From Nesterenkonia sp. Act20 (GTDB taxonomy: Bacteria > Actinomycetota > Actinomycetes > Actinomycetales > Micrococcaceae): a stretch of DNA of 64,000 nt. The first letter of the stretch is position 1, and the number at the start of each line of letters is the position of its first letter. Below the pieces are notes generated by a model, which worked only from the letters and a program-made list of their open reading frames with translations, was not told the DNA's origin and searched no databases. Made by a program: the position numbers and the translations under genes. Below, in pieces: positions 7,570 through 50,036 of this stretch. Location of the stretch: NCBI RefSeq assembly GCF_019173455.1, contig NZ_JADPQH010000001.1:1054001-1118000 (forward strand). The letters are read 5' to 3'.

Positions 7570-8853
7570 TCAGACTCCTGGGTAGTTGCGCTCGGGCTCG
7601 CCGATGTAGATCTGGCGAGGCCGGCCGATCTTGGTGGAGGGATCCTCGATCATCTCGCGCCACTGAGCGATCCAGCCGGGAAGCCGACCGAGCGCGAAGA
7701 GCACGGTGAACATCTTCTCCGGGAAGCCCATCGCCTTGTAGATCAGCCCGGTGTAGAAGTCCACGTTCGGGTAGAGCTTGCGCTCGATGAAGTAGTCGTC
7801 CTCCAGGGCCTTCTGCTCCAGTCGCTGGGCGATGTCGAAGAGCTCGTCATCGCCGCCGAGCTTGGCGAGCAGGTCATCGGCGAGACCCTTGACCACGCGG
7901 GCACGCGGGTCGTAGTTCTTGTACACGCGGTGTCCGAAGCCCATGAGCCGGACGCCGTCCTCCTTGTTCTTAACCTTCTCCATGAAGGCCTCCGGGCTGA
8001 CGTCGCCGGACTGGATCTGGCGCAGCATCTTCAGCACGGCCTCGTTGGCGCCGCCGTGGGCGGGGCCGTAGAGGGCGTTGATGCCGGCGGAGACCGAGGC
8101 GAAGAGGTTCGCCTGCGAGGAGCCGACCAGGCGCACGGTGGAGGTGGAGCAGTTCTGCTCATGGTCCGCGTGCAGGATCAGCAGCGTGTCCAGGGCCTTC
8201 ACGATGTCCGGGTCCAGCTCGTACTGCTCTGCGGGTACGCCGAAGCAGCCACGCAGGAAGTTCTCGGTGAGCGTGAGGTTGTTGTCCGGGTAGAGCATCG
8301 GCTGTCCGATGGACTTCTTATAGGCATAGGACGCGATGGTGGGCACCTTCGCGAGCATCCGGTAGGTCGAGCGCTCCACGTGGTCCTTGTCGAAGGGATC
8401 CAGCGAGTCCGGGTAGTAGGTGGACAGCGCGGAGACCGCCGAGGACAGCACCGGCATCGGGTGCGCATCGCGCGGGAATCCGCCGAAGAAGTCACGCAGC
8501 TCCTCGTGCAGCAGGGTGTGGCGCCGAGTGACCTGGTCGAAGTCCGTCAGCTGCGTCTGAGTGGGCAGCTCGCCGTAGATCAGCAGGTAGGAGACCTCGA
8601 GGAAGCTGGAGTGCTCCGCGAGCTGCTCGATCGGGTATCCGCGGTAGCGCAGAATGCCCTCATCGCCATCGATGTACGTGATCGCGGACTTGGCGTTTGC
8701 GGTGTTCATGAACCCGGGGTCATAGGTGACCGCACCGGTGGTCTTCAACAGCGGAGCAATATCGAGGCCGTCGTTGCCCTCGACTGAGGACTGCACGGGA
8801 AGTTCCAGATCGCCCCCCTGGTAGCTCAGGCGGGCAGGAGTCTGCTCAGTCAT
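7570..8853 (-). CDS. gltA: Citrate synthase
   Basis: A 427-residue hexameric-type citrate synthase that condenses acetyl-CoA and oxaloacetate at entry to the TCA cycle. Catalytic and substrate blocks are present: HADHEQNCSTSTVRLVGSS near residue 235-253, GFGHRVYKNYDPRA near 306-319, and the late R/D segment (NVDFYTGLIYKAMGFP). ATG 8853 has AAGGAG four bases upstream. An upstream in-frame TTG at 8874 would add seven residues and has no ribosome site. It is a single gene, with the next gene (dapC) on the same strand about 110 bases upstream. Confidence 0.97.
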   Translation of the reverse strand: MTEQTPARLSYQGGDLELPVQSSVEGNDGLDIAPLLKTTGAVTYDPGFMNTANAKSAITYIDGDEGILRYRGYPIEQLAEHSSFLEVSYLLIYGELPTQTQLTDFDQVTRRHTLLHEELRDFFGGFPRDAHPMPVLSSAVSALSTYYPDSLDPFDKDHVERSTYRMLAKVPTIASYAYKKSIGQPMLYPDNNLTLTENFLRGCFGVPAEQYELDPDIVKALDTLLILHADHEQNCSTSTVRLVGSSQANLFASVSAGINALYGPAHGGANEAVLKMLRQIQSGDVSPEAFMEKVKNKEDGVRLMGFGHRVYKNYDPRARVVKGLADDLLAKLGGDDELFDIAQRLEQKALEDDYFIERKLYPNVDFYTGLIYKAMGFPEKMFTVLFALGRLPGWIAQWREMIEDPSTKIGRPRQIYIGEPERNYPGV

Positions 8854-37568: not shown

Positions 37569-37630
37569 ATGAGAGCCCGATGAGAGGCGCATGAGAGAAA
37601 CCCTCGGTTTTTCTCATGCGCCTCTCATCG
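37569..37630 (+). promoter_or_regulatory. Five-copy ATGAGAG/TCTCAT box array upstream of the glycan operon
   Basis: ATGAGAG occurs at 37569-37575, 37580-37586 and 37591-37597 (exactly 11 bases apart). TTCTCAT and CTCTCAT follow at 37611-37617 and 37622-37628, also 11 apart and inverted. The block forms a perfect 19-bp inverted repeat (CGATGAGAGGCGCATGAGA at 37578-37596 against 37612-37630). OmpR/PhoB-type regulators bind heptamers with 11-bp spacing. The array ends 33 bases before ATG 37664. The same hairpin could also terminate the DUF1844 transcript. Confidence 0.62.
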
Positions 37631-37663
37631 TTGCTTCACGTGGAGTCAGCAAGATGTTCATCT

Positions 37664-38959
37664 ATGAGCATCACCATCATCTTGTACTCGCATGACTCGG
37701 TCGGCCTGGGCCATGCCCGCCGCAACCGGGCACTGGCCCACGCGCTTGCCGCCGATCTGCCCCGCTTGACGGGGCAGTCGGTCCGCGGCCTGCTCATCGC
37801 GGGACACCCCGACGCCACGGCTGATGCTCTCCCTCAGGGGTGGGACTGGCTCGTGCTGCCAGGTTTCACCCGCACCGTCGATGGATACACCTCGAGACGC
37901 CTCGATGTGAGCAATGATCGCCTCTTCAGCCTCCGCAGCGCGACAGCCGCGGCCGCGGTCAATGCCATGTCCCCGGACCTCTTCATCGCGGACCGTCACC
38001 CGTTCGGCGTCGGGGGTGAGCTGCTCGCCGCATTGGAGGGTCTGCGGGCGCGGGGGGCGCGCTGCGTGTTGGGCATGCGTGATGTGTTGGACTCGCCACC
38101 CGCCGCCGCGGCCGAGTGGCGCGCACTGGGCGGGGCGGCCGCCGCAGCCGCGTTCTATCAAGCGGTCTGGGTCTACGGCGATCCACAGGTGTACAGCCCC
38201 GTGGACAGTGGGGAGATCCCTGTTCCGCTGGCGGCGAGGACTCACTTCACCGGCTACCTCAGCCGCGGCCGACCCGCCGATGAAATGCTCGACTCCAGCC
38301 TGCGGCCCGCTCGACCCTATGTGCTCACAATGGTCGGCGGGGGCTCCGACGGCGGGGCGCTGGCTCTCGCCGCTGCACAGGCGCGAGTGCCCTCCGGGCA
38401 CCGGCACGTGATTCTGACCGGCCCACAGATGCCCCCTCACGACTATGACAAGGTGCTCCGCGCCGTCGCGGACTCTGCTGACCATGACCGCATCCAACTG
38501 ACACGTTCAGCTCCACATGTTCCACAGCTGGTGCGCGAGGCCGCCGCCGTCGTCTCCATGGCCGGATACAACTCCACCGCTGAGATCATGGCGACCAGCA
38601 CTCCTGCACTGCTCGTCCCGCGCAGCAGACGACGCGCCGAACAGCCACGCCGGGCCGCGGCGTTGGCGGCCGTGGGAGCTGTCGAGGTGTTGGAGCCGGA
38701 GAATCTCACCCCTCAGCGGATCAGCCGCTTCTTCACCCGGGCAGTGACCCACCGAACCGTGCGCGACACCGTGGATCTGGACGGGCTCAGCCGCATCGGC
38801 CTGCTGGCAGCCACTGAACTCTCCAGAGCGCCCGCCGCCATGGCCCCTTCGAACACCCCTGCTGTCCACCACCCCCTCTCCTACGCGTCCACATCACCTG
38901 CATCCACGGGGGACCCCGCCCCGGCCATTGAAGCGAGGTTCGAGACTCATGTCAGCTGA
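37664..38959 (+). CDS. Predicted glycosyltransferase (COG4671-like)
   Basis: A 431-residue GT-B-type protein, first gene of the glycan operon. The N-terminus ITIILYSHDSVGLGHARRNRALAHAL (parts: LYSHDSVGLGHARRN, ALAHAL) matches the MurG/GT28-like COG4671 family, with PGFTRTVDGYTSRRL near 69-83. The C-terminal donor site has TMVGGGSDGG near 222-231 and AAAVVSMAGYNSTAEIMATSTPAL (parts: SMAGYNSTAEIMA, TPAL) near 289-310, the usual nucleotide-sugar segment. Sugar and acceptor unknown. The last 45 residues are low-complexity Pro/Ser/Ala. No clear ribosome site precedes the ATG, which lies just after the box array. Confidence 0.83.
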   Translation: MSITIILYSHDSVGLGHARRNRALAHALAADLPRLTGQSVRGLLIAGHPDATADALPQGWDWLVLPGFTRTVDGYTSRRLDVSNDRLFSLRSATAAAAVNAMSPDLFIADRHPFGVGGELLAALEGLRARGARCVLGMRDVLDSPPAAAAEWRALGGAAAAAAFYQAVWVYGDPQVYSPVDSGEIPVPLAARTHFTGYLSRGRPADEMLDSSLRPARPYVLTMVGGGSDGGALALAAAQARVPSGHRHVILTGPQMPPHDYDKVLRAVADSADHDRIQLTRSAPHVPQLVREAAAVVSMAGYNSTAEIMATSTPALLVPRSRRRAEQPRRAAALAAVGAVEVLEPENLTPQRISRFFTRAVTHRTVRDTVDLDGLSRIGLLAATELSRAPAAMAPSNTPAVHHPLSYASTSPASTGDPAPAIEARFETHVS

Positions 38960-40307
38960 CTCCACTGATCGCGCCGCAGGCCCTGCCGATCCTGTCAGTC
39001 CCGCCACTCACACCATCGGCTATGTCCTGAAGATGTACCCCCGGTTCTCGGAGACGTTCATCGTCTCGGAGATCCTGGCTCGCGAAGCTGCCGGCGAGAA
39101 GATCGTGATCTTCTCTTTGCGCCCCAGCACCGACGCAAGGTTTCATCCCGAGCTTGCCCGCGTGAGGGCTCCCGTCGTCCACGTCCCACGGAGCTCCGTG
39201 GCATCGCGGTTCTGGGCGCAGTTCGCTGAGGCGGCTGCATCGCCGGCTCTCGCCGAAGGACTCCAACGAGCCCTGCCCGAGCTGCTCGAGGCAGGACACG
39301 ATGACGCTCAGCAGGCGGTCGCACTCGCCCAGTCCGCAGAGCAGGCCGGCGTCACTCACTTCCACGCCCACTTCGCCTCGATGGCCACCAGCGTGGCCCG
39401 TCTCGCCGGGATGATCAGCGGACTTCCCTACTCCTTCACGGCGCATGCGAAGGACATCTTCCATGAAGATGTCGATCCGGCGGAGCTGCAGACCAAATTG
39501 GCCGACGCCCATCATGCGATCACGATCTCAGGGTTCAATCTGGAGGATCTGCAGCGCCGGTTTCCTGCGGAGACCTCCCGGCTGCACCTGGTCCGCAACG
39601 GATTGGAACTCTCCCGTTTTCCCTTCACTCCGGGCCGGAACGTCCGACCGGCCGACGGTGATCCGCCTCGCCTGCTCGGGATCGGACGTCTGGTGGAGAA
39701 GAAGGGGTTCCATCTGCTCATCGAAGCGGTGTCCCGGCTGCACAGCCTCGGCGTCCCAGCACAGGTCAGCATCGCCGGTGACGGCCCCTTGCGTTCCGAG
39801 CTCCAGGAGAGGATCGACGGCGCGGGACTGACCTCCTGGGTGCGACTGCTCGGTCCCTGCACACAGGAAGAGATCGGCGAGCTGCTCGGCACACACGATG
39901 TGTTCGTGGCCCCGTTCGTGGTGGGCGCCGATGGCAATGCGGACGGACTTCCCACGGTCCTCCTAGAGGCGATGGCACGCGGAATCCGCTGCGTGGCGGC
40001 GCAGGTGACCGGGGTCGGTGAACTCGTGCGCAGCGCAGAGACCGGGTGGTTGGTGCCCTCCGGGGACGTCACCGCCCTGACCAAGGCCCTGCTGGAGGCG
40101 CTCACCCTCGACGCCGGACACCTGGCGCTGTTGACTGCCGCCCGCAGCTGCATCGAGGACCACTTCGATTCCACCAGTCAGGCAGCGACGCTCCGTGCGC
40201 TGGTCCATGACCCACAGAGCGTGAGCTGCCGGGAGAGCCTGGTCGGCAGCGACACCGCAACGACCACGGTGCCGCTGCCGATGATGCGCGTGGAGGAGCC
40301 GGTATGA
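38949..40307 (+). CDS. Glycosyltransferase family 4
   Basis: A 452-residue GT4 protein. The N-domain has GYVLKMYPRFSETFIVSEI near 24-42 (the KxxPRxSETFI motif of colanic/EPS-type GT4), THFHAHFASMATSVARL near 135-151 and YSFTAHAKDIF near 161-171. The C-domain has GIGRLVEKKGFHLLIEAV near 243-260, IAGDGPLR near 276-283 and the donor motif DGLPTVLLEAMARG near 333-346. It retains its sugar with configuration, as expected for GT4. It overlaps the preceding gene by 11 bases. Confidence 0.9.
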   Translation: MSADSTDRAAGPADPVSPATHTIGYVLKMYPRFSETFIVSEILAREAAGEKIVIFSLRPSTDARFHPELARVRAPVVHVPRSSVASRFWAQFAEAAASPALAEGLQRALPELLEAGHDDAQQAVALAQSAEQAGVTHFHAHFASMATSVARLAGMISGLPYSFTAHAKDIFHEDVDPAELQTKLADAHHAITISGFNLEDLQRRFPAETSRLHLVRNGLELSRFPFTPGRNVRPADGDPPRLLGIGRLVEKKGFHLLIEAVSRLHSLGVPAQVSIAGDGPLRSELQERIDGAGLTSWVRLLGPCTQEEIGELLGTHDVFVAPFVVGADGNADGLPTVLLEAMARGIRCVAAQVTGVGELVRSAETGWLVPSGDVTALTKALLEALTLDAGHLALLTAARSCIEDHFDSTSQAATLRALVHDPQSVSCRESLVGSDTATTTVPLPMMRVEEPV

Positions 40308-41575
40308 GAATCGCCTACCTGCTGGCGGACCCTGGCATCGGGATCTTCGGCACCAAGGGAGCCAGCGTGCATGCCCAGGAGATGATCCGCGCCTTCCGCG
40401 GTTTGGGCCACGAGGTCACCGTCTTCTGCACCAAACGCGGCGACAGGTTCGGTGACCCCCACAGTGAGGCGCAGCCGACCGATCTTGCTGACCTTCCGGT
40501 GTATGTGATCCCGGTGGACGGGGCCAAGGGGGCAGCTGCCCGAGAGGTCGCGGTCGCGCGCGCCTCGTCCACGATGGCGGCGCTGGCAGGCGACGGTGAA
40601 TTCGACTTGCTCTACGAGCGCTATGCGCTGTTCTCCACCGCCGGCGCAGAGGCCAAGCGCTCCAGCGCCTGCCGGTTGGTCGTGGAGGTCAACGCCCCGC
40701 TGTTGGCTGAGCAGGCCAGACATCGCACTCTTCACGACGTCGGCGGCGCCACAGCCGCCACGCGCGAGACCTTCTCCCAGGCGGACCTCCTCTCCTGCGT
40801 CTCGTCGCCCATCGCCGAGTGGGCCCGCGAGATGAGCAGCACGGGGACCCGACTGCCGAGGGTGCGGATCACAGCCAACGGCGTGGACCCTGATCGTTTT
40901 CGACAATCGAGTTCAGTGTTCCCGCAGTCGCGGCACTCCGATCGTGAGACGGTGACGATCGGATTCCTGGGAACGCTCAAACCATGGCACGGCACTGACC
41001 TGCTGATCCAGGCGTTCGCGCATGCGCTCCAGCGGCTCGCTTCGCCGGCGCTCAAGCTGCTGATCGTCGGCGGGGGCCCGGAGCGAAACGCCTTGGAAGA
41101 GCTCACCGAGGAGCTGGGCATCGCGGAGGATGTGGAGTTCACCGGTCCTCTCCCCCCAGACCAGGTGCCGGCGGCGCTGCGTCGGTTCGACATCGCGGCG
41201 GCCCCATATCCTGCGCCCCCAACGGGCACAGCGCACTATTTCTCACCGCTGAAGGTCTATGAGTACCTCGCCGCCGGAGTTCCGGTCCTCGCCTCAGCGG
41301 TGGGGGAGCTTCCAGAGCTGCTTGCTGGCCCTGCTTCGACGGGACCTGCGGGAGAAACGGTCCTCCCAGGCGACGTCGAGGCGCTGACCGTTTCGCTGAT
41401 CTCGATGATCGAAGACCCTGCACGGAGGGCACGACTGGGTGCCTCCGGTCGCCTGCAGGTCAAGCATGGACACAGCTGGGCTCATCGAGCCGAGGAGCTG
41501 CTGGATGACCTTGCGCAGTTGAATCTCGAAACCGGGACCCCAGAAACGTCCCCTGCGGAGGTGGCTTCTGCATGA
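40304..41575 (+). CDS. Glycosyltransferase family 4
   Basis: A 423-residue GT4 protein. It begins MRIAYLLADPGIGIFGTKGAS with the glycine-rich loop and VHAQEMIRAFRGLGHEV. The donor half has ITANGVDPDRF near 190-200, TIGFLGTLKPWHGTDLLIQAF (parts: GFLGTLKPWHG, LIQAF), LLIVGGGPERNAL near 249-261 and SPLKVYEYLAAGVPVLAS near 309-326 (the EX7E-like region). Overlap with the previous gene is four bases (ATGA). With the two neighbours it could build a short chain of three sugars or act on one acceptor in turn. Confidence 0.9.
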   Translation: MRIAYLLADPGIGIFGTKGASVHAQEMIRAFRGLGHEVTVFCTKRGDRFGDPHSEAQPTDLADLPVYVIPVDGAKGAAAREVAVARASSTMAALAGDGEFDLLYERYALFSTAGAEAKRSSACRLVVEVNAPLLAEQARHRTLHDVGGATAATRETFSQADLLSCVSSPIAEWAREMSSTGTRLPRVRITANGVDPDRFRQSSSVFPQSRHSDRETVTIGFLGTLKPWHGTDLLIQAFAHALQRLASPALKLLIVGGGPERNALEELTEELGIAEDVEFTGPLPPDQVPAALRRFDIAAAPYPAPPTGTAHYFSPLKVYEYLAAGVPVLASAVGELPELLAGPASTGPAGETVLPGDVEALTVSLISMIEDPARRARLGASGRLQVKHGHSWAHRAEELLDDLAQLNLETGTPETSPAEVASA

Positions 41576-43503
41576 GCCGGGAAAAAAGGGCCGAGGCGAA
41601 GGATTCCCGCACGCTGCACCGGCGCGGGCTCTCGAGGACGCTGCGCATGGTGCTCCCCCACCTGGGTGAGCACAAGCTTCTGGTGGCCACCGGACTGCTG
41701 GCGCTGCTGGGTGACGTGGCGTTCCGCATCCTAGAGCCGTGGCCGGTGAAGTTTGCAGTGGACGCCGTCACCGAGGCACTGGGTGCCGACGTCGACGAGA
41801 CCATCGACTCCAGCAACAACGTTGAAGGCATGCTCATCTTCTGGGCCTTCGCACTGGCACTGATCGTGGGGGGCCGAGCTGTCTGCAACTACGCCTCGAC
41901 CATCGCCTTCGCCAGAACGGGCGTCAAGGTGGCCGCACGTCTGCGCACACGAGTCTTCGACCACATCCAGTCACTGTCGCTTCGATATCACTCCAAGGCA
42001 TCCATCGGGGACACCTCTCAGCGCCTGGTCGGGGACATGGGTCGGCTTCAGGAAGTCGCCGTGACGGCAGGTCTGCCGCTGGTCGGAAACCTGCTGACGC
42101 TTGTGACGCTGCTGGTGGTCGTGCTCATCCTCAATCCGCTGCTGGCTCTGATCGTCATCATCACCGGAGCCGGATACCTCTTGGCGAGCCGCGTGCTGAG
42201 TCCGATGATCACTGCCGCTTCGCGGTCAACCCGCAAAGGCGAGGGACGGCTGGTGGGCGATGCCGCCGAAGCGCTGGCCGCGATCCGGGTGGTGCAGTCC
42301 TACGGTCTGGAGGAGACTGTCGCGTCAGGGTTCGCCGCCGGGAACAACAAGGCGTTGAAGGCCGGGATCCGCGCACGACGTTTGGCAGCGCGCCTCGAAC
42401 GTTCAACGGACCTGTTGGTGGGGACGGCTACCGCCGTGGTGCTGGGCTTCGGTGGGTGGCAGGTGCTGCAGGGCGGGATGACACCGGGCGATATGGTGCT
42501 GTTCCTGATGTACCTCAAGATCGCGATGAAGCCGCTGCGCGATATGGCTAAATACACCGGTCGGATCGCCCGCGCCACGGCTTCGGGCGAGCGCATTGCG
42601 GACCTTCTCGATGAAGAGATCGAGATTCAGGATCCGCCACATCCACTGCCGATGGGACGGGCGGAGGGCGAGCTCACCTTCTGGAGGGTCACGGCCAGGG
42701 ACCATCGGGGCGCACCGCTCTTCCACGAGCTGAGTCTGCAGGTGCCTGCAGGACAGCGTGTGGGGCTGCTGGGGCCCTCGGGAGCGGGAAAATCGACACT
42801 GGCGGGCTACCTGCTTCGATTGGCGGACCCCGACTCCGGGTCTGTGCTCGTCGACGGTTGCTCGGCGCGGAATCTCACTCGAGCAGACCTTCGACGCAAT
42901 ATCGCGATCCTGCTTCAGGAATCAGTGCTCTTCAGCACCACGGTGCGGGAGAACATCCGCTACGGGCGCCAGGGCGCCAGCGATGCGGAGGTGGAGCAGT
43001 CAGCGCGGCGAGCGGGCGCCCACGATTTCATCATGGCGCTGCCCGAGGGGTACGAGACCGAACTGGGAAACCGCGGTGACACCCTCTCCGGGGGGCAGCG
43101 TCAACGGGTCGCCATCGCGCGAGCCCTGGTCCGCGACGCGCCGATCGTGCTGCTGGACGAACCGACGACGGGTCTGGACCCCGCCGCTCGAGAGGTCGTC
43201 GAGGCTTCGATCCGGGAGTTGACCCGCGAGCGCACCACAGTAGCCATCACCCACGACCTCAGCATGATCCAAGGCTTGGATCGTGTGCTGTGGCTGGAGG
43301 CCGGTGCGATCCGTGAGGACGGCTCCCCGGCGGAGCTGCTCGCAGATCCCCGTTCGCGACTGGCGCAGTGGGCTTCGAGTCAGCGAGGAGCCGCGGGGGC
43401 GGAGCCCGAACCCGCCGGCTCGGCGGAGAGCGGCACGGGGTCAGGGGAGGCATCAGAGGCAGAACAACGGTCCGCGCTGCGGCCAGAAGGGGTGTCGCGA
43501 TGA
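41572..43503 (+). CDS. ABC exporter, fused membrane and ATPase domains
   Basis: A 643-residue half-transporter (MsbA/lipid or glycoside exporter type). The membrane domain (about 25-330) has six helices, beginning LLVATGLLALLGDVAFRI. In the ATPase, Walker A GPSGAGKST is near residue 401, the Q-loop ILLQESVLFSTT near 444, signature LSGGQRQRVAIARAL near 503, Walker B PIVLLDEPTTGLD near 523 and the switch ITHDLSMI near 560. A Glu/Gly/Ser-rich tail follows. It probably works as a homodimer and exports the glycan or glycoside made by the upstream enzymes. Both ends overlap neighbours by four bases. Confidence 0.92.
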   Translation: MSREKRAEAKDSRTLHRRGLSRTLRMVLPHLGEHKLLVATGLLALLGDVAFRILEPWPVKFAVDAVTEALGADVDETIDSSNNVEGMLIFWAFALALIVGGRAVCNYASTIAFARTGVKVAARLRTRVFDHIQSLSLRYHSKASIGDTSQRLVGDMGRLQEVAVTAGLPLVGNLLTLVTLLVVVLILNPLLALIVIITGAGYLLASRVLSPMITAASRSTRKGEGRLVGDAAEALAAIRVVQSYGLEETVASGFAAGNNKALKAGIRARRLAARLERSTDLLVGTATAVVLGFGGWQVLQGGMTPGDMVLFLMYLKIAMKPLRDMAKYTGRIARATASGERIADLLDEEIEIQDPPHPLPMGRAEGELTFWRVTARDHRGAPLFHELSLQVPAGQRVGLLGPSGAGKSTLAGYLLRLADPDSGSVLVDGCSARNLTRADLRRNIAILLQESVLFSTTVRENIRYGRQGASDAEVEQSARRAGAHDFIMALPEGYETELGNRGDTLSGGQRQRVAIARALVRDAPIVLLDEPTTGLDPAAREVVEASIRELTRERTTVAITHDLSMIQGLDRVLWLEAGAIREDGSPAELLADPRSRLAQWASSQRGAAGAEPEPAGSAESGTGSGEASEAEQRSALRPEGVSR

Positions 43504-44684
43504 AGCAGGATCTATCAGTGTGGACCGAGGCAGACGAGGTCGCGGCCAGGGCCGTCGGTCTGACGGGCGCCCGTCTGCTGCTCGATTCCGCAGAGCTCTC
43601 CTCACTGGTGGACGAGCCGGTGACCATCACCCGGATCCGCGCCAAACCGGGACATTCGCTCGTCGCGTCCTTTCAGACCGAGGCCGGGGACCCACGCTGG
43701 GCGATGCTCACCCTGGACACCGACAAGCTTGCGAAAGCTCGCGTGCGCGCGGCAGAGGGCGGACAGTCGGCGTCCTTCCGCGTCCACACAGACATCGGAC
43801 CGTATCTCTTCAGCGGAAGCCTCTGGGCAGACCCGGTGCTCGGCAAAGACCTCGCAGAGGCACGCCGGGCTATGGAAGCTGCGGCCGGTGCAGCGCTGCC
43901 GTGGCAGGTTCTGCGTCATAATCCCCGGCGTCGAGTGGTGGCCGTGGTGCCGGATCCTCGATCGGGACACGGAGACAAGATCGTGCGCGTGGCCTCCATG
44001 GGAACGGCGGCTGCGCTCGAGGCGGCTCAGCGGTGGAGGGCCCTCGGACTTCCGCTGGTGCGCAGCACGTCCCTGGGGCGTCGGGGAACCGCGATGAGTT
44101 CACCCCGCTGGGGGTGGGAGGACTTGAACAACAGCCCACACGCGCCGGCCGCGCAGGCAGCGGGAGAGGTCGTGGGTCGATTGCATCGGCTCACCCGGGG
44201 TTCCCGGCGCAGGCCGATCCCCTCCGAGCTGCGCAGCGCTGAGCGGTCGATCTCGATCATCGCTCCCTGGTTGGCGGCCTCCGCCAGTCGTCTCGCGGAA
44301 GGGGTCCAGGAACGGCTCACCGCTGAGCAGGGTGTCCCTCCGTGCGAGCTTCATGGAGACCTCTCGCCGGACCAGGTCGTGATGGCTGCTCCGGGCAGCC
44401 ACAAGATCCGCCTCATCGACTTCGACCGCTCCGGCTCGGGGGACCCGATGCGCGATGTGGGAAGTTGGCTGGCCTCCTGCCGCCGGCAGAACCTGGAGTC
44501 CATGAGAGTCGGGTTCATGGATGGCTACCGCGAACACGCGGAGCCCGACGATCGGCGCGCAGCGACGTGGGAGGCCTACGCTCAGCTGGCCGCCGCCTCC
44601 GACCCATTTCGGCACCGTGCACCCGACTGGCCCGCTCAGATGCACACCATGCTGCGGCTCGGCCAGGAGGCTCTGGACCGATGA
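43500..44684 (+). CDS. APH-like phosphotransferase family protein (kinase 1 of the glycan locus)
   Basis: A 394-residue protein with an aminoglycoside-phosphotransferase/choline-kinase-like catalytic half: CELHGDLSPDQVVMAAPG near 281-298 (Brenner-type HxDxxxxQ, with Gln where Asn is usual) and IRLIDFDRSGSGDPMRDVGSWLAS near 302-325 (parts: LIDFDRSGSGDP, DVGSWLAS). The N-terminal half (VTITRIRAKPGHSLVASFQ in part, then LRHNPRRRVVAVV) looks like the ATP-binding lobe. The substrate may be a sugar or the locus product; the family also contains resistance and small-molecule kinases. Overlaps of four bases on both sides. Confidence 0.8.
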   Translation: MKQDLSVWTEADEVAARAVGLTGARLLLDSAELSSLVDEPVTITRIRAKPGHSLVASFQTEAGDPRWAMLTLDTDKLAKARVRAAEGGQSASFRVHTDIGPYLFSGSLWADPVLGKDLAEARRAMEAAAGAALPWQVLRHNPRRRVVAVVPDPRSGHGDKIVRVASMGTAAALEAAQRWRALGLPLVRSTSLGRRGTAMSSPRWGWEDLNNSPHAPAAQAAGEVVGRLHRLTRGSRRRPIPSELRSAERSISIIAPWLAASASRLAEGVQERLTAEQGVPPCELHGDLSPDQVVMAAPGSHKIRLIDFDRSGSGDPMRDVGSWLASCRRQNLESMRVGFMDGYREHAEPDDRRAATWEAYAQLAAASDPFRHRAPDWPAQMHTMLRLGQEALDR

Positions 44685-45805
44685 CTCCTCTGCCGCTGCC
44701 ACCAGAGACCTTCACCCAGGCGGGGGTCGAGCTGCGCGTGACCCGCGCCTGGCCCCTCCCGGAAGAGTCGACCCTCATTCTCGAATGCGCGGATGGGGAA
44801 CAGCGCAGGGCCGCGCTCTGGGACCAGTCTGGCCTGCGGCTGCAACCCACTGACACCAAGCTCAGTGCACTGGCAGAAGCCGCACCGGGCGGCGTCGTCG
44901 TCTCCCATCGATGGGGCAGACGCGCCGTCGTGCATCAGGGCGAGCGCTACATCAAAGTGGTGAGGCGCGGCCGCAGCTCCGCCATCATGCGGGGCATCGC
45001 CCGCGCCGGGGTCTTCGCCCAGACGTTCAGGACACCGGAGGCGCTGGCGCGGGATGAATCAACCGTGACCTTCTCCGCGCTGCCAGGTCTGACCCTCCAC
45101 GATCCCGCTCTCTTCTCCGCGGTGGAATGGGAGCGCGCGTGGCACCAGGTGATGGGCGCGTGGACGCGAGCCGTCCGGGATGCGGCCAGGAGCCTGGACG
45201 TGCCCGGGGTCCCTGGACTGACCGACGGCGGTGGACTGACCGACGGCGGTGGGACAGTGACGCACGGGCCCGACCAAGAGGTCCAGGTCCTGCACCGTTG
45301 GGCCGGTCTGGTGCAGCCCTTCATCGAGAACCCCGAGCTGCTCTGGAGAAATGTCGAGACCGCCTCCGCGCGGCTGCGCGGGCTTCGCGACGCGCCGCTG
45401 CGACCAGCGCACCGCGACCTGCATGACAAGCAGCTGCTGTGGAGCCCGGACGCAGGTCCTGGACTGCTCGACGTCGACACTGCATGCCTTGCGGACCCTG
45501 CACTGGACCTGGGAAATCTTCGCGCCCATGCCCGCCTGCGCGTGCTGCAGCAGCTGTGGGCGCCACACGAGGCGAGAACCGTGGTGGCCGCCGTCGACGC
45601 TGCGGCCGCTCAGATCGGCGTGTCGAGTTCGGCGCTTCGCGTCTACGAGCAGGCGGCCGCTCTCCGGCTGGGCTGCGTCTATGCGGTGCGCCCGGCTTAT
45701 TCCGCGGTGGCCGCCAGGCTGCGTCTGCTCGATGCCCAGGAGCGTGAAGATGAGAACTTTCTCATCCCGACTTCACGGTCCCCTCACTCTCGAGGTGCAG
45801 GATGA
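44681..45805 (+). CDS. APH-like phosphotransferase family protein (kinase 2 of the glycan locus)
   Basis: A 374-residue protein of the same broad fold. AHRDLHDKQLLWSPDAG near 246-262 is the catalytic loop (HRDLHDKQ; again Gln replaces Asn) and GLLDVDTACLADPALDLGNLRAH (parts: LLDVDTACLADP, LDLGNL) is the metal/DFG-like segment. The ATP lobe has ERYIKVVRRGRSS near 88-100. A duplicated GLTDGGG linker occurs near 183-196. It is the last of the six overlapping genes. The pair of adjacent kinases suggests two phosphorylations or a heteromer; this is inference. Confidence 0.78.
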   Translation: MTPLPLPPETFTQAGVELRVTRAWPLPEESTLILECADGEQRRAALWDQSGLRLQPTDTKLSALAEAAPGGVVVSHRWGRRAVVHQGERYIKVVRRGRSSAIMRGIARAGVFAQTFRTPEALARDESTVTFSALPGLTLHDPALFSAVEWERAWHQVMGAWTRAVRDAARSLDVPGVPGLTDGGGLTDGGGTVTHGPDQEVQVLHRWAGLVQPFIENPELLWRNVETASARLRGLRDAPLRPAHRDLHDKQLLWSPDAGPGLLDVDTACLADPALDLGNLRAHARLRVLQQLWAPHEARTVVAAVDAAAAQIGVSSSALRVYEQAAALRLGCVYAVRPAYSAVAARLRLLDAQEREDENFLIPTSRSPHSRGAG

Positions 45806-45808
45806 GAA
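45750..45808 (+). promoter_or_regulatory. ATGAGAA/TTCTCAT boxes upstream of the secreted protein gene
   Basis: ATGAGAA (45750-45756) and TTCTCAT (45759-45765) form an inverted pair, with a third ATGAGAA at 45802-45808. They lie over the end of the kinase 2 gene and 76-134 bases before ATG 45884. They match the heptamer of the array at 37569-37628, but the 11-bp spacing is not kept here. Confidence 0.4.
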
Positions 45809-45883
45809 CAGATCGAACGAAGCACCAGCACCAGAAAGCGTCGTCGAACTGGTGAGGTTCACCAGAGCAAGGAAAAGTGCATC

Positions 45884-46366
45884 ATGAGCAGGCAGACAGG
45901 CTGGATCCTCACCGGCGCACTGAGCATAGTCGCCCTCGGTGGCACCGCCGCAGTGGCGCAGCTCAATTCAGACAGCCCGGAACAGGACCTCGGACCGGCG
46001 ATGGAGGTGGCCGAGCAGAGCGCTGCGCCAACCTCGGCGAGTCCGAAGCCCTCCCCGAGCCGGAGTCCGTCCCCCTCGCGCACAACCGACGCGGATCAGG
46101 ACCCCAGTGCATCGGCAGCACCGCGTGCGAGCTCGACACCGACTCACGCAGCGGAACCAGCACCAGCCCCTGATCCGGTGCCCGAACCCGCTCCTGCGCC
46201 CATTCCGGAGCCCGCACCAGCCCCTGATCCCGCACCCGGTCCTGCGACGATCAGCCCCACTCCACCGGCGGTGTATCAGCCCGCCCCACTGGCTTCGGAC
46301 TCGGCATGGACACCGGTGAGCTCGGTGTCCGCCCAGAGCTGGTCAGCGCCCTCGGCCGGCAGCTGA
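45884..46366 (+). CDS. Secreted Pro/Ala-rich protein
   Basis: A 160-residue protein with a signal peptide or anchor (residues about 1-26, GWILTGALSIVALGGTAAVA) and then a disordered Ser/Pro/Ala/Glu region with repeated PEPAPAP and PAPDP units at about 85-125. It looks like a wall-spanning or wall-exposed spacer. No folded domain or sortase motif is visible. It lies after the glycan operon, has its own ATGAGAA boxes and converges with the response regulator gene. Possible role: acceptor or anchor for the glycan; this is a guess. Confidence 0.75.
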   Translation: MSRQTGWILTGALSIVALGGTAAVAQLNSDSPEQDLGPAMEVAEQSAAPTSASPKPSPSRSPSPSRTTDADQDPSASAAPRASSTPTHAAEPAPAPDPVPEPAPAPIPEPAPAPDPAPGPATISPTPPAVYQPAPLASDSAWTPVSSVSAQSWSAPSAGS

Positions 46367-46392
46367 CCCGCGCGATACCTGCGAGAGGCCAC

Positions 46393-47052
46393 TCAGGCCT
46401 CGAGGCGGTAACCCACGCCGCGCACGGTCTTGATCCGCTCAGCCCCGACCTTGGCACGCAGGTAGCGGACATAGACGTCCACCAGATTCGACCCCGGATC
46501 GAAGCTGTAGCCCCAGACGCGTTCCAACAGCTGCTCACGGGAGAGGACCTGTCCGGGATGACGCATGAAGGTCTCCAGGAGAGCGAACTCCCGTGAGGAC
46601 AGATCGTGCTGCTTCTCTCCTGCAGTGATCCGCCGCGCGTGGAGATCGAGCGTGAGTGAGCCAGCGGTCAAGCTGGTCGGCTCCTCCGCGGAACCACCGC
46701 GCAGCCGAAGTCTGATCCGAGCCAGCAGCTCATCGATGCTGAAGGGCTTGGCCATGTAATCGTCCGCCCCGGAATCCAGTCCGGCCACGGTGTCCGCCGG
46801 CGTGCTGCGCGCCGTGAGGATGATGACCGGCGCCGTGAACCCCTGCGCGCGCAGTCGGCCCAAGAGGCGCAGGCCATCTTCATCCGGGAGCCCCAGATCC
46901 AATACGGCCAGATCCACGGCGCTGCTCAGCGCGTACTCATACCCTTCGGCCGCGGTGGCGCCGCGCAGGACCGCGTAGCCCGCCGCACGCAGCCCCTTCT
47001 CCACGAAGGAGGCGATCCGGTCTTCGTCCTCAATGAGCAGGATCTGCGTCAC
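46393..47052 (-). CDS. OmpR/PhoB-family response regulator
   Basis: A 219-residue two-domain regulator. The receiver has the acidic pair EDED near 8-11, phospho-acceptor D52 in VLDLGLPDEDG and the switch lysine in MAKPFSIDELL near 100. The winged-helix DNA-binding domain (about 125-219) has HDLSSREFALLETFMRHPGQV (parts: LSSREFALLE, MRHPGQVLS), WGYSFDPGSNLVDVYVRYLR (part) and ends RGVGYRLEA. It overlaps the kinase gene by four bases. OmpR-type proteins bind direct repeats with 11-bp spacing, as seen at 37569-37597. Confidence 0.95.
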   Translation of the reverse strand: MTQILLIEDEDRIASFVEKGLRAAGYAVLRGATAAEGYEYALSSAVDLAVLDLGLPDEDGLRLLGRLRAQGFTAPVIILTARSTPADTVAGLDSGADDYMAKPFSIDELLARIRLRLRGGSAEEPTSLTAGSLTLDLHARRITAGEKQHDLSSREFALLETFMRHPGQVLSREQLLERVWGYSFDPGSNLVDVYVRYLRAKVGAERIKTVRGVGYRLEA

Positions 47053-48662
47053 GCTGGGCCTCCTGTGCTGTTCGTCTGCGTGGAATGCTCAGAGGCGGTC
47101 GAGGCATCCGGGCTGTCGGCTGCTCGCGAGTCGGCGGCCTCGGACACAAAATCCATCGGGTCCTCGTCTGAATGCGGCAGCACCATGGTGAAACGGGCAC
47201 CCATGCCGGGGGCCGATTCAAGCTTCACCCAGCCCCCATGGGCCTGCGCTATCGCATCCACGATGGGAAGCCCCAGCCCCGAGCCCGGCTTGCTGGAGTC
47301 TGTGCGCCCGAAGCGCCGGAACACCCGCTCCTGATCTTCATCCGCGATGCCCTGGCCCTGGTCACGTACGAAGAGCCGCACCTCCCCCGCCGCGAGCTCC
47401 GAACCCAACGAGATGACCGACCCGGGGGCAGAGAACTTCACGGCATTGGCAGCAAGCTGCAGCCAGGCCTGCGTGAGTCTCTCGCGGTCGAGCCACGAGT
47501 CACCTTCAGCGCGCGCGTCCACGATCCACCGCCGCTCCCCCAGCGCGATCGCCTTGTCATAGACCTCATCGGTGAGCTTCCCGACCTCGGTGGGCGTCCG
47601 TCGCAGGAAGTCAGGCCTGCCTGCCTGCGCGAGAGTGGTCAGGTCATCGATCACCCGGTTCATCCGAGTCAGCTCATCGAGGGTCAGTTCACGGGTGGAG
47701 AGCACATCATCGCGATCTCCGGCGTCGAGCACCTCGAGATGACCGCGCACGATGGTCAGCGGCGTGCGCAGCTCATGGCTGACATCCTGGATCAGCTGGT
47801 CCTGGGAGCGGAAGGAGGCCTCGAGCCGGTCCAGCATCTCGTTGACCGACTTGGTCATCTCCGTGAGGTCGTCCTTGCCGGTGACCGGGATCCGTTCCGA
47901 GAGATCCTCCCTCCCGATGTGGCGGGCCGAGGAGGCCAGCACTCCGACCGGATGAAGCAGCCGTCCGGCGATGACCCCTCCGACGATCGCCACGACGCCC
48001 AGTGAGAGCGCCGCCACGGCGGCGTAGATCAGAAATCCATCCGCAAAGACTCCCTTTTCGGCGGTCATGTCGTAGCCCATGACCAGGGCTCCCACCTGAG
48101 ACTCCTCCGCCGCCTCCGAATCCTCGGGCGCAGCGCTGCCGTGGATCGGCACGATCGCCACGCGGTAGGTGGTCCTCTCTGTCTCGAGCGTGGTCACGGT
48201 CGCACGTTCCGCCACGGCATAATCCTCCAGCAGGTTCAGCAGCTCAGGATCCTCTTCCAGACGCACCCGCGTGACCGCTGAGGTGAAGGCCACCTGGCCG
48301 TCGACAAGTCCGACGATCCCCTCGTTGCGCGTGGGAATGATGCGTTCCATGGCTGTGCGCACCAGTTCCGTGGGCGAGGTGAAGGGTTCACCGGTGCTGG
48401 GATCCACCCCCACCTCGTGCAGAACCCGGAACTGCTCGGCATCGGCGACAAGCTCCGCGTCGATTCGCCCCTCGACCTGAGCCTGCTGAATCGCGAAAGC
48501 CGTATAGCCGGCAGCGGCCAGCGCAAGCGCAGCGAGACCGACGACGGCGGCCAGAATCCTCGCTCGCACACTCAGCGGACGCAGGGCTGCGCGCCTTCGC
48601 AGCCGACGCCGCGGTGAACGCGCGGGCACCTCCGGCTCACCCGGCGTAGTCGTGTGGCTCAT
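47049..48662 (-). CDS. Sensor histidine kinase
   Basis: A 537-residue membrane kinase. A basic N-terminus (RRRLRRRAAL) leads to helix 1 (about 36-56), an extracellular sensor of about 150 residues, helix 2 (about 213-235) and a HAMP domain. Then HisKA with H296 in DVSHELRTPLTIVRG, and HATPase_c with LAANAVKFSAPGS (N box), VRDQGQGIADED (G1) and SGLGLPIVDAI (G2). The tail is Ser/Asp/Ala-rich. It should phosphorylate the adjacent regulator. Its extracellular acidic loop (GSAAPEDSEAAEE) gives no ligand clue. Confidence 0.94.
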   Translation of the reverse strand: MSHTTTPGEPEVPARSPRRRLRRRAALRPLSVRARILAAVVGLAALALAAAGYTAFAIQQAQVEGRIDAELVADAEQFRVLHEVGVDPSTGEPFTSPTELVRTAMERIIPTRNEGIVGLVDGQVAFTSAVTRVRLEEDPELLNLLEDYAVAERATVTTLETERTTYRVAIVPIHGSAAPEDSEAAEESQVGALVMGYDMTAEKGVFADGFLIYAAVAALSLGVVAIVGGVIAGRLLHPVGVLASSARHIGREDLSERIPVTGKDDLTEMTKSVNEMLDRLEASFRSQDQLIQDVSHELRTPLTIVRGHLEVLDAGDRDDVLSTRELTLDELTRMNRVIDDLTTLAQAGRPDFLRRTPTEVGKLTDEVYDKAIALGERRWIVDARAEGDSWLDRERLTQAWLQLAANAVKFSAPGSVISLGSELAAGEVRLFVRDQGQGIADEDQERVFRRFGRTDSSKPGSGLGLPIVDAIAQAHGGWVKLESAPGMGARFTMVLPHSDEDPMDFVSEAADSRAADSPDASTASEHSTQTNSTGGPA

Positions 48663-48672
48663 GGGCTTCAGT

Positions 48673-48729
48673 TTCTCATCCTGGTGCCCCTGACACGGCC
48701 CTCCGGTGATGAGAGTTCTTTCATCTGAG
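48673..48729. promoter_or_regulatory. Divergent regulatory region with TTCTCAT and ATGAGAG boxes
   Basis: TTCTCAT at 48673-48679 and ATGAGAG at 48709-48715, with ATCTGAG at 48723-48729, lie in the 84 bases between the sensor kinase start (reverse) and the third kinase gene (forward). They match the heptamer of the operon array and suggest that the two-component system controls itself and this gene. Confidence 0.4.
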
Positions 48730-48746
48730 TGCGGCAGGATGACTGC

Positions 48747-50036
48747 ATGGATCAGCTCGCCGCCCTCGTCTCGGTGCTGCGCGGTCCCACCGCTGGCGAG
48801 CTGCTGCGGATGGCGCTTGAACCTGGAGATGTCACCCTGAGTGCCTGGAAGCTGGAACAGGTCTACGCACGTCCGGGGGCGGAGACCACCGCCCTCTACC
48901 AGGTGGAGACCCCGGGGATGCCGCTGACCTTGGTGATCAGCACGGTCTCACTCACCGATCAGCAGCGCCAGGCGATGGGGGCGGTGCGCGCCGAATCCGT
49001 CCAGGGGACTGTGCACATCTGGGCGCACCCGGTAGACCCGGAGCTGCCTGGCCTGCTCGTGGTCGAAGCGGGTGCCGAGGTCGGCGCCGGTGCCGAGGTT
49101 TGCGCCGGTGCCGAGCACCGTGGATCCGGGACCCTTGAAGAGCGCCTGAGCCGGCTGCTCGGTGAAAAGTGCAGCATCACCGACCTGCGTCGGCTGGTGC
49201 TGCGCCCGCTGCGCCGAGCCGTGTACCGAGCGGTGGTGTCCTCGGTTCGGGGCGAGAGGGTGCTCTACCTCAAGGTTGTGAGACCCGCCAAAGTGCCGGG
49301 CCTGCTTCAGCGGCACCGCTGTTCCAGGCTGAGCCCCCCGGCCGCCGACGCCGGCGAAGGGATCCTCGTCATTCCCGAGGCACCTGGGATGCCCCTGACC
49401 CACCACCTGTACCGGCCGACACCATCGACAGCGAGGGGCGGCCAGGCGCACCATCACGAGCCCGTGCCGCGTGTACACCCGAAGACGATCACCTCGGCGT
49501 TGGACTCGTTGACGCCGTCCGCCCTGGAGCTGCCGGCTCGAGAGTCACCCGCGCAGCGTCACCGCGGCCTCGAACCTGGGGCCATCGGTGCAGGCGCAGA
49601 CCCACAACGGGTCGGAAAGCTGGGAGATGACATCGCCGCGAAGCTCAGCACGACGCCGGGGCCGGTGGTGCCCACCCACGGCGACTTCCATCCGGCCAAC
49701 CTGTTCCTGGACCAAACCGCGAGCACACCCACGGCACTCATCGATGCTGACACGGTGGGGCCGGGCTACCGGGTCGACGATCTCGCCACGATGCTGGGGC
49801 ACCTGATCACCCTGCCCAGCTTCAACCCGGCCGCGTACTCGGCCGTCCCCGACCTGGCTCGCAGATTCTTCTCCCACTGCCTCATCGATCACGATCCCGA
49901 CGAGCTGCGCGCACGGACCGCCGCCGTGCTGCTGTCACTGCTTCCAGGGGTCGAGAGCGGCGAGCAGCGGGAGCACTACCTGCACTGGGCCGAGCAGCTG
50001 GTGAGGGACCTCAGTCCTGCGGATCTGCTTCGCTGA
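48747..50036 (+). CDS. APH-like phosphotransferase family protein (kinase 3 of the glycan locus)
   Basis: A 429-residue protein with a canonical catalytic loop VPTHGDFHPANLFLDQ near 307-322 (HxDxxxxN) and ALIDADTVGPGYRVDDLATMLG near 329-350 (parts: LIDADTVGPG, DDLATML). The ATP lobe has RAVYRAVVSSVRGERVLYLKVV (parts: RAVYRAVV, LYLKVV) near 157-178. A GAEVGAGAEVCAGAEH repeat lies near 108-123. I choose ATG 48747 with AGGA eight bases upstream; GTG 48729 is possible. Its 3' end overlaps the convergent membrane-protein gene by 26 bases. Confidence 0.78.
   Translation: MDQLAALVSVLRGPTAGELLRMALEPGDVTLSAWKLEQVYARPGAETTALYQVETPGMPLTLVISTVSLTDQQRQAMGAVRAESVQGTVHIWAHPVDPELPGLLVVEAGAEVGAGAEVCAGAEHRGSGTLEERLSRLLGEKCSITDLRRLVLRPLRRAVYRAVVSSVRGERVLYLKVVRPAKVPGLLQRHRCSRLSPPAADAGEGILVIPEAPGMPLTHHLYRPTPSTARGGQAHHHEPVPRVHPKTITSALDSLTPSALELPARESPAQRHRGLEPGAIGAGADPQRVGKLGDDIAAKLSTTPGPVVPTHGDFHPANLFLDQTASTPTALIDADTVGPGYRVDDLATMLGHLITLPSFNPAAYSAVPDLARRFFSHCLIDHDPDELRARTAAVLLSLLPGVESGEQREHYLHWAEQLVRDLSPADLLR

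Follow-up and report, generated by a model that had tools for sequence, protein, structure and literature searches.

A conserved glycosyltransferase, exporter and kinase gene cassette beside a two-component system in Nesterenkonia sp. Act20

Gene content of the locus

The six-gene cassette described here lies in a 64,000-nucleotide stretch (the window) of the 2.93-Mb genome of Nesterenkonia sp. Act20 (contig NZ_JADPQH010000001.1, positions 1,054,001 to 1,118,000). It comprises three glycosyltransferase (GT) genes (GTa, GTb, and GTc), a gene for an ATP-binding cassette (ABC) exporter, and two genes for APH-like kinases (APH1 and APH2), all transcribed from the plus strand, with successive overlaps of 11, 4, 4, 4, and 4 bp (Table 1). 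A 78-bp gap separates APH2 from a gene for a Pro/Ala-rich protein (PAR), beyond which lie a response regulator (RR) and a histidine kinase (HK), which run towards the operon from the minus strand and overlap each other by 4 bp, and a third APH-like kinase gene (APH3) divergent from HK. This layout, overlaps of 4–11 bases included, had been given accurately in a preliminary description of the locus, as the recomputed gene ends bear out; the start chosen there (37,569) coincides exactly with the point where the operator repeats discussed below begin.

Table 1. Genes and candidate operators of the locus, in positions of the window.
Feature	Positions	Strand	Description	Basis or remark
Operator 1	37569..37639	+	Cassette promoter: ATGAGAG direct repeats spaced 11 bp apart, with inverted copies (TCTCAT)	
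GTa	37664..38959	+	GT28-like (MurG-related) glycosyltransferase, first cassette gene	Glyco_tran_28_C PF04101; best solved relative MurG (7e-8)
GTb	38949..40307	+	GT4 glycosyltransferase, EpsE-like	Glycos_transf_1
GTc	40304..41575	+	GT4 glycosyltransferase	Glycos_transf_1
ABC exporter	41572..43503	+	Single-chain half-transporter, MsbA/HepA-like	Membrane and ATPase domains
APH1	43500..44684	+	APH-like kinase, loop HGDLSPDQ	PF01636
APH2	44681..45805	+	Diverged APH-like kinase, loop HRDLHDKQ	Loop, weak AmgK/LxmK similarity, profile matches to solved APH proteins
Operator 2	45750..45787	+	Upstream of PAR: GATGAGA-N4-TCTCATC palindrome, then two 11-bp direct repeats	
PAR	45884..46366	+	Small secreted Pro/Ala-rich protein	PAR homologues adjoin the two-component system in relatives
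RR	46393..47052	-	OmpR-family response regulator	Receiver and Trans_reg_C
HK	47049..48662	-	Sensor histidine kinase	HAMP, HisKA, HATPase_c
Operator 3	48709..48724	+	HK/APH3 divergent intergenic region: ATGAGAGTTCTTTCAT	Palindromic form only
APH3	48747..50036	+	APH-like kinase, Asn-type loop HGDFHPAN	PF01636

The exporter carries its membrane and ATPase domains on one 643-aa chain and is thus not of the Wzm/Wzt or KpsMT type. It scored highest against MsbA-type families (MsbA_rel, 365 bits) and fell short of the NCBIfam cut-off for the MsbA lipid A exporter (344 vs 602 bits), as well as those for the HepA family (292 vs 725 bits) and PglK (131 vs 1000 bits); the best 25 of its 197 family matches all lie below curated cut-offs. 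By domain scan, RR and HK form a two-component pair of the OmpR family. APH2 gave no Pfam match at 0.01. Among the ten locus proteins scanned, none was a sugar-nucleotide, Wzx, or Wzy protein. The preliminary description had made the same point, and locally it stands, in that this is not a Wzx/Wzy locus, but dehydrogenase homologues are present elsewhere in the strain's own genome.

Conservation and predicted control of the cassette

We defined a full cassette as GTa-GTb-GTc-ABC-APH1-APH2 with all six genes on one strand and in one order. In the preliminary description, a lack of conserved gene order in relatives had been named as refuting, and this refutation clearly fails: the full cassette was found in 35 of 53 GTa-bearing loci (this locus and 34 of the 52 others, all scored with profiles built from these loci themselves), of which 18 are from Nesterenkonia, 16 from genomes elsewhere in the class, and one from an E. 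coli plasmid. The cassette is real and conserved beyond chance, given that its order is kept across these loci and that, within this genome, exact operator repeats are confined to the locus. Four duplicate loci (L032–L035) were left uncounted. Two imperfect loci were scored as full: L058, where the contig begins within GTa, and L052 (genome G014), where GTa and the exporter gene each match in two pieces, as if frameshifted or misassembled. Of the strongly GTa-positive Nesterenkonia genomes, 18/20 carry the full cassette; the two exceptions are G018, in which L038 is cut off by the contig end beyond GTa, and G009, which holds GTa fragments only (L057, outside the 53 loci).

The wider spread of the cassette is patchy. 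A search of 58 genomes, the strain's own included, found GTa homologues at E ≤ 1e-3 in 27, three of these with a weak best match near 1e-5, and in a class-wide sample of 394 genomes the GTa profile at 1e-20 matched 20 (15 of 137 genera). In E. coli, the cassette is present in 18 of 5,426 genomes, always plasmid-borne and at no less than 99% identity. Plasmids of Paracoccus aestuarii and Pseudorhodobacter turbinis (Rhodobacterales) keep the cassette order with both kinases in one open reading frame (ORF), as does L051, which is among the 35 full cassettes. In a GTa+GTb tree of 49 loci, E. coli groups with the Rhodobacterales cassettes, and the rhizobial and Azospirillum/Sulfitobacter loci group together, each with a support of 1.00. 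On the E. coli plasmid p1RM9088 (L065, 5390-15568), we noted an eight-gene version that includes an alginate-export barrel and a Ugd-like dehydrogenase, the version borne by the plasmids of those 18 genomes. The other refutation named in the preliminary description, membership in a described pathway with a known product, found no support among the matches listed in the open-access literature, none of which shows the six-gene cassette in its title or the start of its abstract.

The locus had also been placed under one two-component system, and this assignment is supported: the RR/HK pair lies beside the cassette, with candidate operator repeats at three promoters. RR was found at E ≤ 1e-70 in 16/20 GTa-positive and 0/10 GTa-negative Nesterenkonia genomes (Fisher p = 3e-5, a value that ignores kinship), and also in G032 and G033, where it lies ~100 kb from the cassette or on another contig. 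All four GTa-positive Nesterenkonia genomes below the RR cut-off hold HK homologues (40–56%), and an HK search of 14 chosen genomes was positive in 6/6 GTa-positive and 1/8 GTa-negative genomes (G028). We regard the two-component system near the cassette as probably dedicated to it.

Three APH-like kinases had been assigned to a single system. APH1 and APH2 remain members of the cassette, but APH3 appears to be mostly a gene of the regulator block, since it stays with HK both where the block is inverted (L045, L047, and L052) and where it is unlinked, with APH3-like matches (34–40% identity, three of them partial) adjoining HK or RR in L126, L128, L129, and L130. It was not detected in the unlinked locus L127, nor in L056. 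A pathway of three kinases was rejected.

In their exact forms, the candidate operators are confined to this locus within the genome. The direct repeat ATGAGA-N5-ATGAGA has three genomic occurrences, every one of them in the GTa promoter, and with one mismatch it occurs at three sites elsewhere (none for the reversed control). The palindrome ATGAGA-N4-TYTCAT occurs at two genome sites, before PAR (45750-45765) and between HK and APH3 (48709-48724), and with one mismatch at ten other places (one forward and one reverse match for the reversed control). A repeat test restricted to the window (≤ 2 mismatches) was weaker than the genome-wide counts, with 3 matches against 0.48 expected and 3 reached in 2/100 shuffles. 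Direct repeats at ~11 bp, a trait of the OmpR family, are present at the cassette and PAR promoters, and the HK/APH3 region has the palindrome only.

Among the 35 full cassettes, 29 have relaxed repeats upstream of GTa, namely 17/18 Nesterenkonia loci (the one miss being cut by a contig end) and 12/16 loci from other genomes of the class; the shuffle control for these regions used an approximate swap method with 60 shuffles per region. Before PAR, repeats were matched by regular expression in 7 of 15 listed Nesterenkonia loci; some other upstream regions show a palindrome by eye. Of 13 linked loci, 6 have the 18-bp form of Operator 3 unchanged, another 6 have it upstream of HK with 3–4 mismatches, and in the remaining one (L042) the region is cut by a contig end. 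Two-component control of the cassette is, as a prediction from these patterns, well supported.

The surroundings of the one-mismatch operator places were inspected at three. A one-mismatch palindrome (L147, 2047-2062; G000:C1:1788646) lies 8 nt before an ORF that, by eye, resembles a sugar-importer binding protein and may mark either a fourth target or chance. A one-mismatch direct-repeat site (L135, 1501-1517; G000:C1:739889) overlaps the beginning of an ORF judged murG-like by eye and may likewise be chance.

Predicted product and role of the kinases

The preliminary description had singled out a Gln in the HxDxxxxQ loop of APH1 and APH2, with Asn in APH3. We confirmed all three residues, and the Gln loop is kept by both APH1 and APH2 in 35/35 full cassettes. 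The residue is not unique to these kinases: in 9dk1, a kinase of solved structure, Gln likewise aligns at this position, and Asn replaces it in some cousins (the APH1-type matches of L066, L068, and L107, and the APH2-type matches of L110 and L111), so the loop was rejected as a unique mark of the cassette. Functions in lantibiotic or aminoglycoside biology were also rejected, as the matches are weak and far below cut-offs. APH1 reaches 34 bits against LxmK, a class V lanthipeptide kinase family, with a cut-off of 315, and against the resistance APH families, APH3 scores at best 19.6 of 520, with no named APH resistance match for APH1 or APH2 at 0.01.

The kinases appear to be tied to the exporter. 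Where an MsbA-like exporter is present, an APH match accompanies it in 43/44 loci, the exception (L109) ending at a contig edge; in GTa loci without this exporter and not cut short (L061–L064 and L067), an APH match was found in 0/5, these counts being made with the profiles built from the loci that they scored. A further three loci (L038, L104, and L106), two of them cut by contig ends, have neither exporter nor APH match. APH1 and APH2 share one ORF in L051, L059, and L060, and in L051 (G032) a gene for a secreted AMIN-like protein follows the fused kinases (8045-8707). Given this tie to the exporter, the overlaps that join the exporter, APH1, and APH2 genes, and the fusion of the two kinases in some relatives, we favour a predicted phosphorylation of the glycan, or of a glycan precursor, that precedes export, by analogy with WbdD.

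No gene of the present locus names the sugar; clues to the product come from genes around related cassettes. A dehydrogenase gene directly follows APH2 in L054, L094, and L100 (same strand) and in L053 (convergent), and in L065 the six genes are followed by the alginate-export barrel and then, as second gene downstream, the Ugd-like dehydrogenase. The family scan assigned those of L053, L065, L094, and L100 to UDP-glucose 6-dehydrogenase, all below equivalog cut-offs, with the UDP-glucose dehydrogenase TuaD as best specific family for L053, L094, and L100; that of L054 was assigned by similarity. Alginate-export barrels are encoded at L065 (Pfam) and, as annotated, at L066 and L068; besides L065, the carriers are two Manganitrophus plasmids. 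Lyase genes comprise a heparinase-like one at L111 and a PF14099 one at L067 (both Pfam) and those annotated as heparinase-like or 'alginate lyase family' at L066 and L068. GalE-type epimerase genes adjoin L048–L050, the one at L049 passing the GalE cut-off. We did note recurrent histidine-phosphatase-like and polysaccharide-deacetylase-like matches at the distant cousins L062, L063, L066, and L068. Because related loci hold a dehydrogenase, an alginate-export barrel, or lyases, we infer that the product is probably a polysaccharide containing uronic acid rather than a small molecule, and a polymer rather than an oligosaccharide.

Taken together, we propose that the two-component system controls a six-gene cassette which makes, phosphorylates, and exports a glycan, probably one containing uronic acid, a reading to which we would give about an even chance and which retains the glycosylation, phosphorylation, and export predicted in the preliminary description. 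GTa, GTb, and GTc would build the sugar chain at the inner face of the membrane, and APH1 and APH2 would phosphorylate the chain or a lipid-linked precursor ahead of export by the MsbA/HepA-like half-transporter. The phosphate may prime, cap, or license the substrate, as with WbdD and the E. coli O9a antigen. Phosphorylated RR would bind the TGAGA repeats at three promoters, those of the cassette, of PAR, and of the HK/APH3 divergent region, with PAR as the second transcription unit of the proposed regulon.

More tentatively, and in our view less likely than not, the cassette could define a class of phosphorylated uronic-acid exopolysaccharide that is new to description. Neither a synthase nor a Wzy polymerase would take part in making it, an APH-type kinase pair with a Gln metal-loop would license a single-chain ABC exporter, and the cassette would have passed among Actinomycetes, Rhodobacterales, and E. 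coli plasmids, recruiting local regulators.

Several observations weigh against the proposal of a regulated, phosphorylated uronic-acid glycan. On the side of the product, the dehydrogenase adjoins just 5 of the 35 full cassettes, and UDP-glucose dehydrogenase was rejected as a co-occurring partner in the family, being present in 20/22 GTa-positive vs 10/14 GTa-negative genomes (p = 0.18), with no match at that cut-off in the cassette-bearing G014 and G029. The barrel and lyases occur mostly in more distant cousins (the L065 barrel excepted), some with a different gene order, and no polymerase, priming enzyme, or synthase was found among the proteins scanned. Regarding the kinases, L111 has APH matches with no MsbA-like exporter in view, and the domain scan found no methyltransferase domain in APH1 or APH2, unlike WbdD. 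As to regulation, G028 (L131) holds HK, RR, and APH3 homologues with no GTa match, while G002 (L126) holds the cassette and an HK with APH3, PAR, and memb homologues, with no RR match beside HK or at 1e-70. No relaxed operator was detected at the E. coli locus (0/1), at either Rhodobacterales locus, or at 4/16 loci from other genomes of the class; 10 of the 29 operator-positive loci hold one relaxed pair only; and at ≤ 4 mismatches, Operator 3 was not found in 6/6 unlinked HK loci (L126–L131).

The most probable alternative, though unlikely in our estimation, is that the product is a short phosphoglycolipid and no polymer is made. GTa, as a MurG-like lipid-acceptor enzyme, would begin synthesis on a lipid of the membrane, two sugars would come from GTb and GTc and phosphate from the kinases, and the MsbA-like exporter would flip the completed glycolipid to the outer leaflet. 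MurG, which acts on a lipid-linked sugar, is the best solved relative of GTa, and phosphatidylinositol mannosyltransferases are among those of GTb and GTc; MsbA-type families give the top exporter scores, and there are exactly three GTs, with no polymerase among the proteins scanned. The barrels at L065, L066, and L068 and the lyases at L066, L067, L068, and L111 instead suggest a polymer, mostly in distant cousins as they are. We consider it improbable that the kinases are AmgK-like salvage enzymes of the sugar-1-phosphate kind, feeding nucleotide-sugar synthesis for the three GTs, with a phosphate-free exported product. Sugar kinases of the APH fold exist and APH2 weakly resembles AmgK (1e-4), but the cassette proteins include no nucleotidyltransferase, the dehydrogenase in several loci already points to precursor supply, and kinase presence follows exporter type. 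Finally, the small-molecule model of the preliminary description, in which sugar and phosphate would be added to a metabolite to serve its export and the self-protection familiar from antibiotic producers, seems very improbable: antibiotic clusters can combine a GT, an ABC exporter, and an APH, the kinases are of the APH family, and GTa weakly matches a macrolide GT family, but the APH proteins lie far below resistance cut-offs, cassettes or cousins in relatives sit with dehydrogenase, alginate-export, or lyase genes, and no scaffold gene was noticed in the ORFs of 33–54 kb, where no family-model search was aimed at one.

Comparison with known systems

Under the proposed reading of an exported, phosphorylated glycan, the cassette provides a testable setting for two conserved but unassigned kinase families and for a route of glycan export common to distant phyla, and the exact operator forms, confined to three promoters of the locus, offer a clean way to look for the product and for the signal that induces it. 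The nearest studied analogue we found is the msbA2 operon of Sinorhizobium meliloti (SMb21188-SMb21191), in which GTs are followed by an MsbA-like ABC exporter for a polysaccharide and which the two-component regulator ChvI activates (PMC3687685, PMC12239276); PMC5498481 offered nothing relevant to it. The likeness, GTs and an MsbA-like exporter under a two-component regulator, is one of analogy; in the available text of these sources, the operon starts with an acyltransferase and has two GTs, with no APH kinase named. It was rejected as a cassette member on this described gene content rather than on sequence, and, again judged by gene content as available, it differs from the S. meliloti GTa locus L067.

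The rhizobial and Azospirillum/Sulfitobacter GT28-GT4-GT loci (L061–L064 and L067) resemble the cassette in starting with homologous GTa and GTb genes but differ in having another exporter type and no APH match and in forming a separate clade. A nucleotide-sugar dehydrogenase lies near three of the five (L063, L064, and L067), and a deacetylase or lyase near several. We also noted, in L061 (11681-12337) and L067 (14631-15305), both kinase-free, an opposite-strand gene annotated as a SAM-dependent methyltransferase between the GTs and the exporter, a possible alternative modification; the L067 protein has no Pfam match.

Among exporters, HepA (heterocyst polysaccharide), PglK, and MsbA are homologous half-transporters, and the cassette exporter scores below the curated cut-offs of all three. 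Among kinases, the LxmK family bears the weak likeness to APH1 noted above, lanthipeptide genes having been sought among the ten scanned proteins. WbdD is a kinase that phosphorylates the E. coli O9a O-antigen glycan exported by an ABC transporter (PMC3482155). Its kinase domain is of the eukaryotic type and shares a chain with a methyltransferase, whereas the cassette has two APH-type proteins and a single-chain exporter. Judged by its genes, the cassette, with its two unusual kinases, would work like known ABC-exporter glycan systems, yet it falls outside the defining test of each named exporter or kinase family tried. If its kinases do license export, it would join WbdD as an instance of glycan export under phosphate control, with another type of kinase and exporter.

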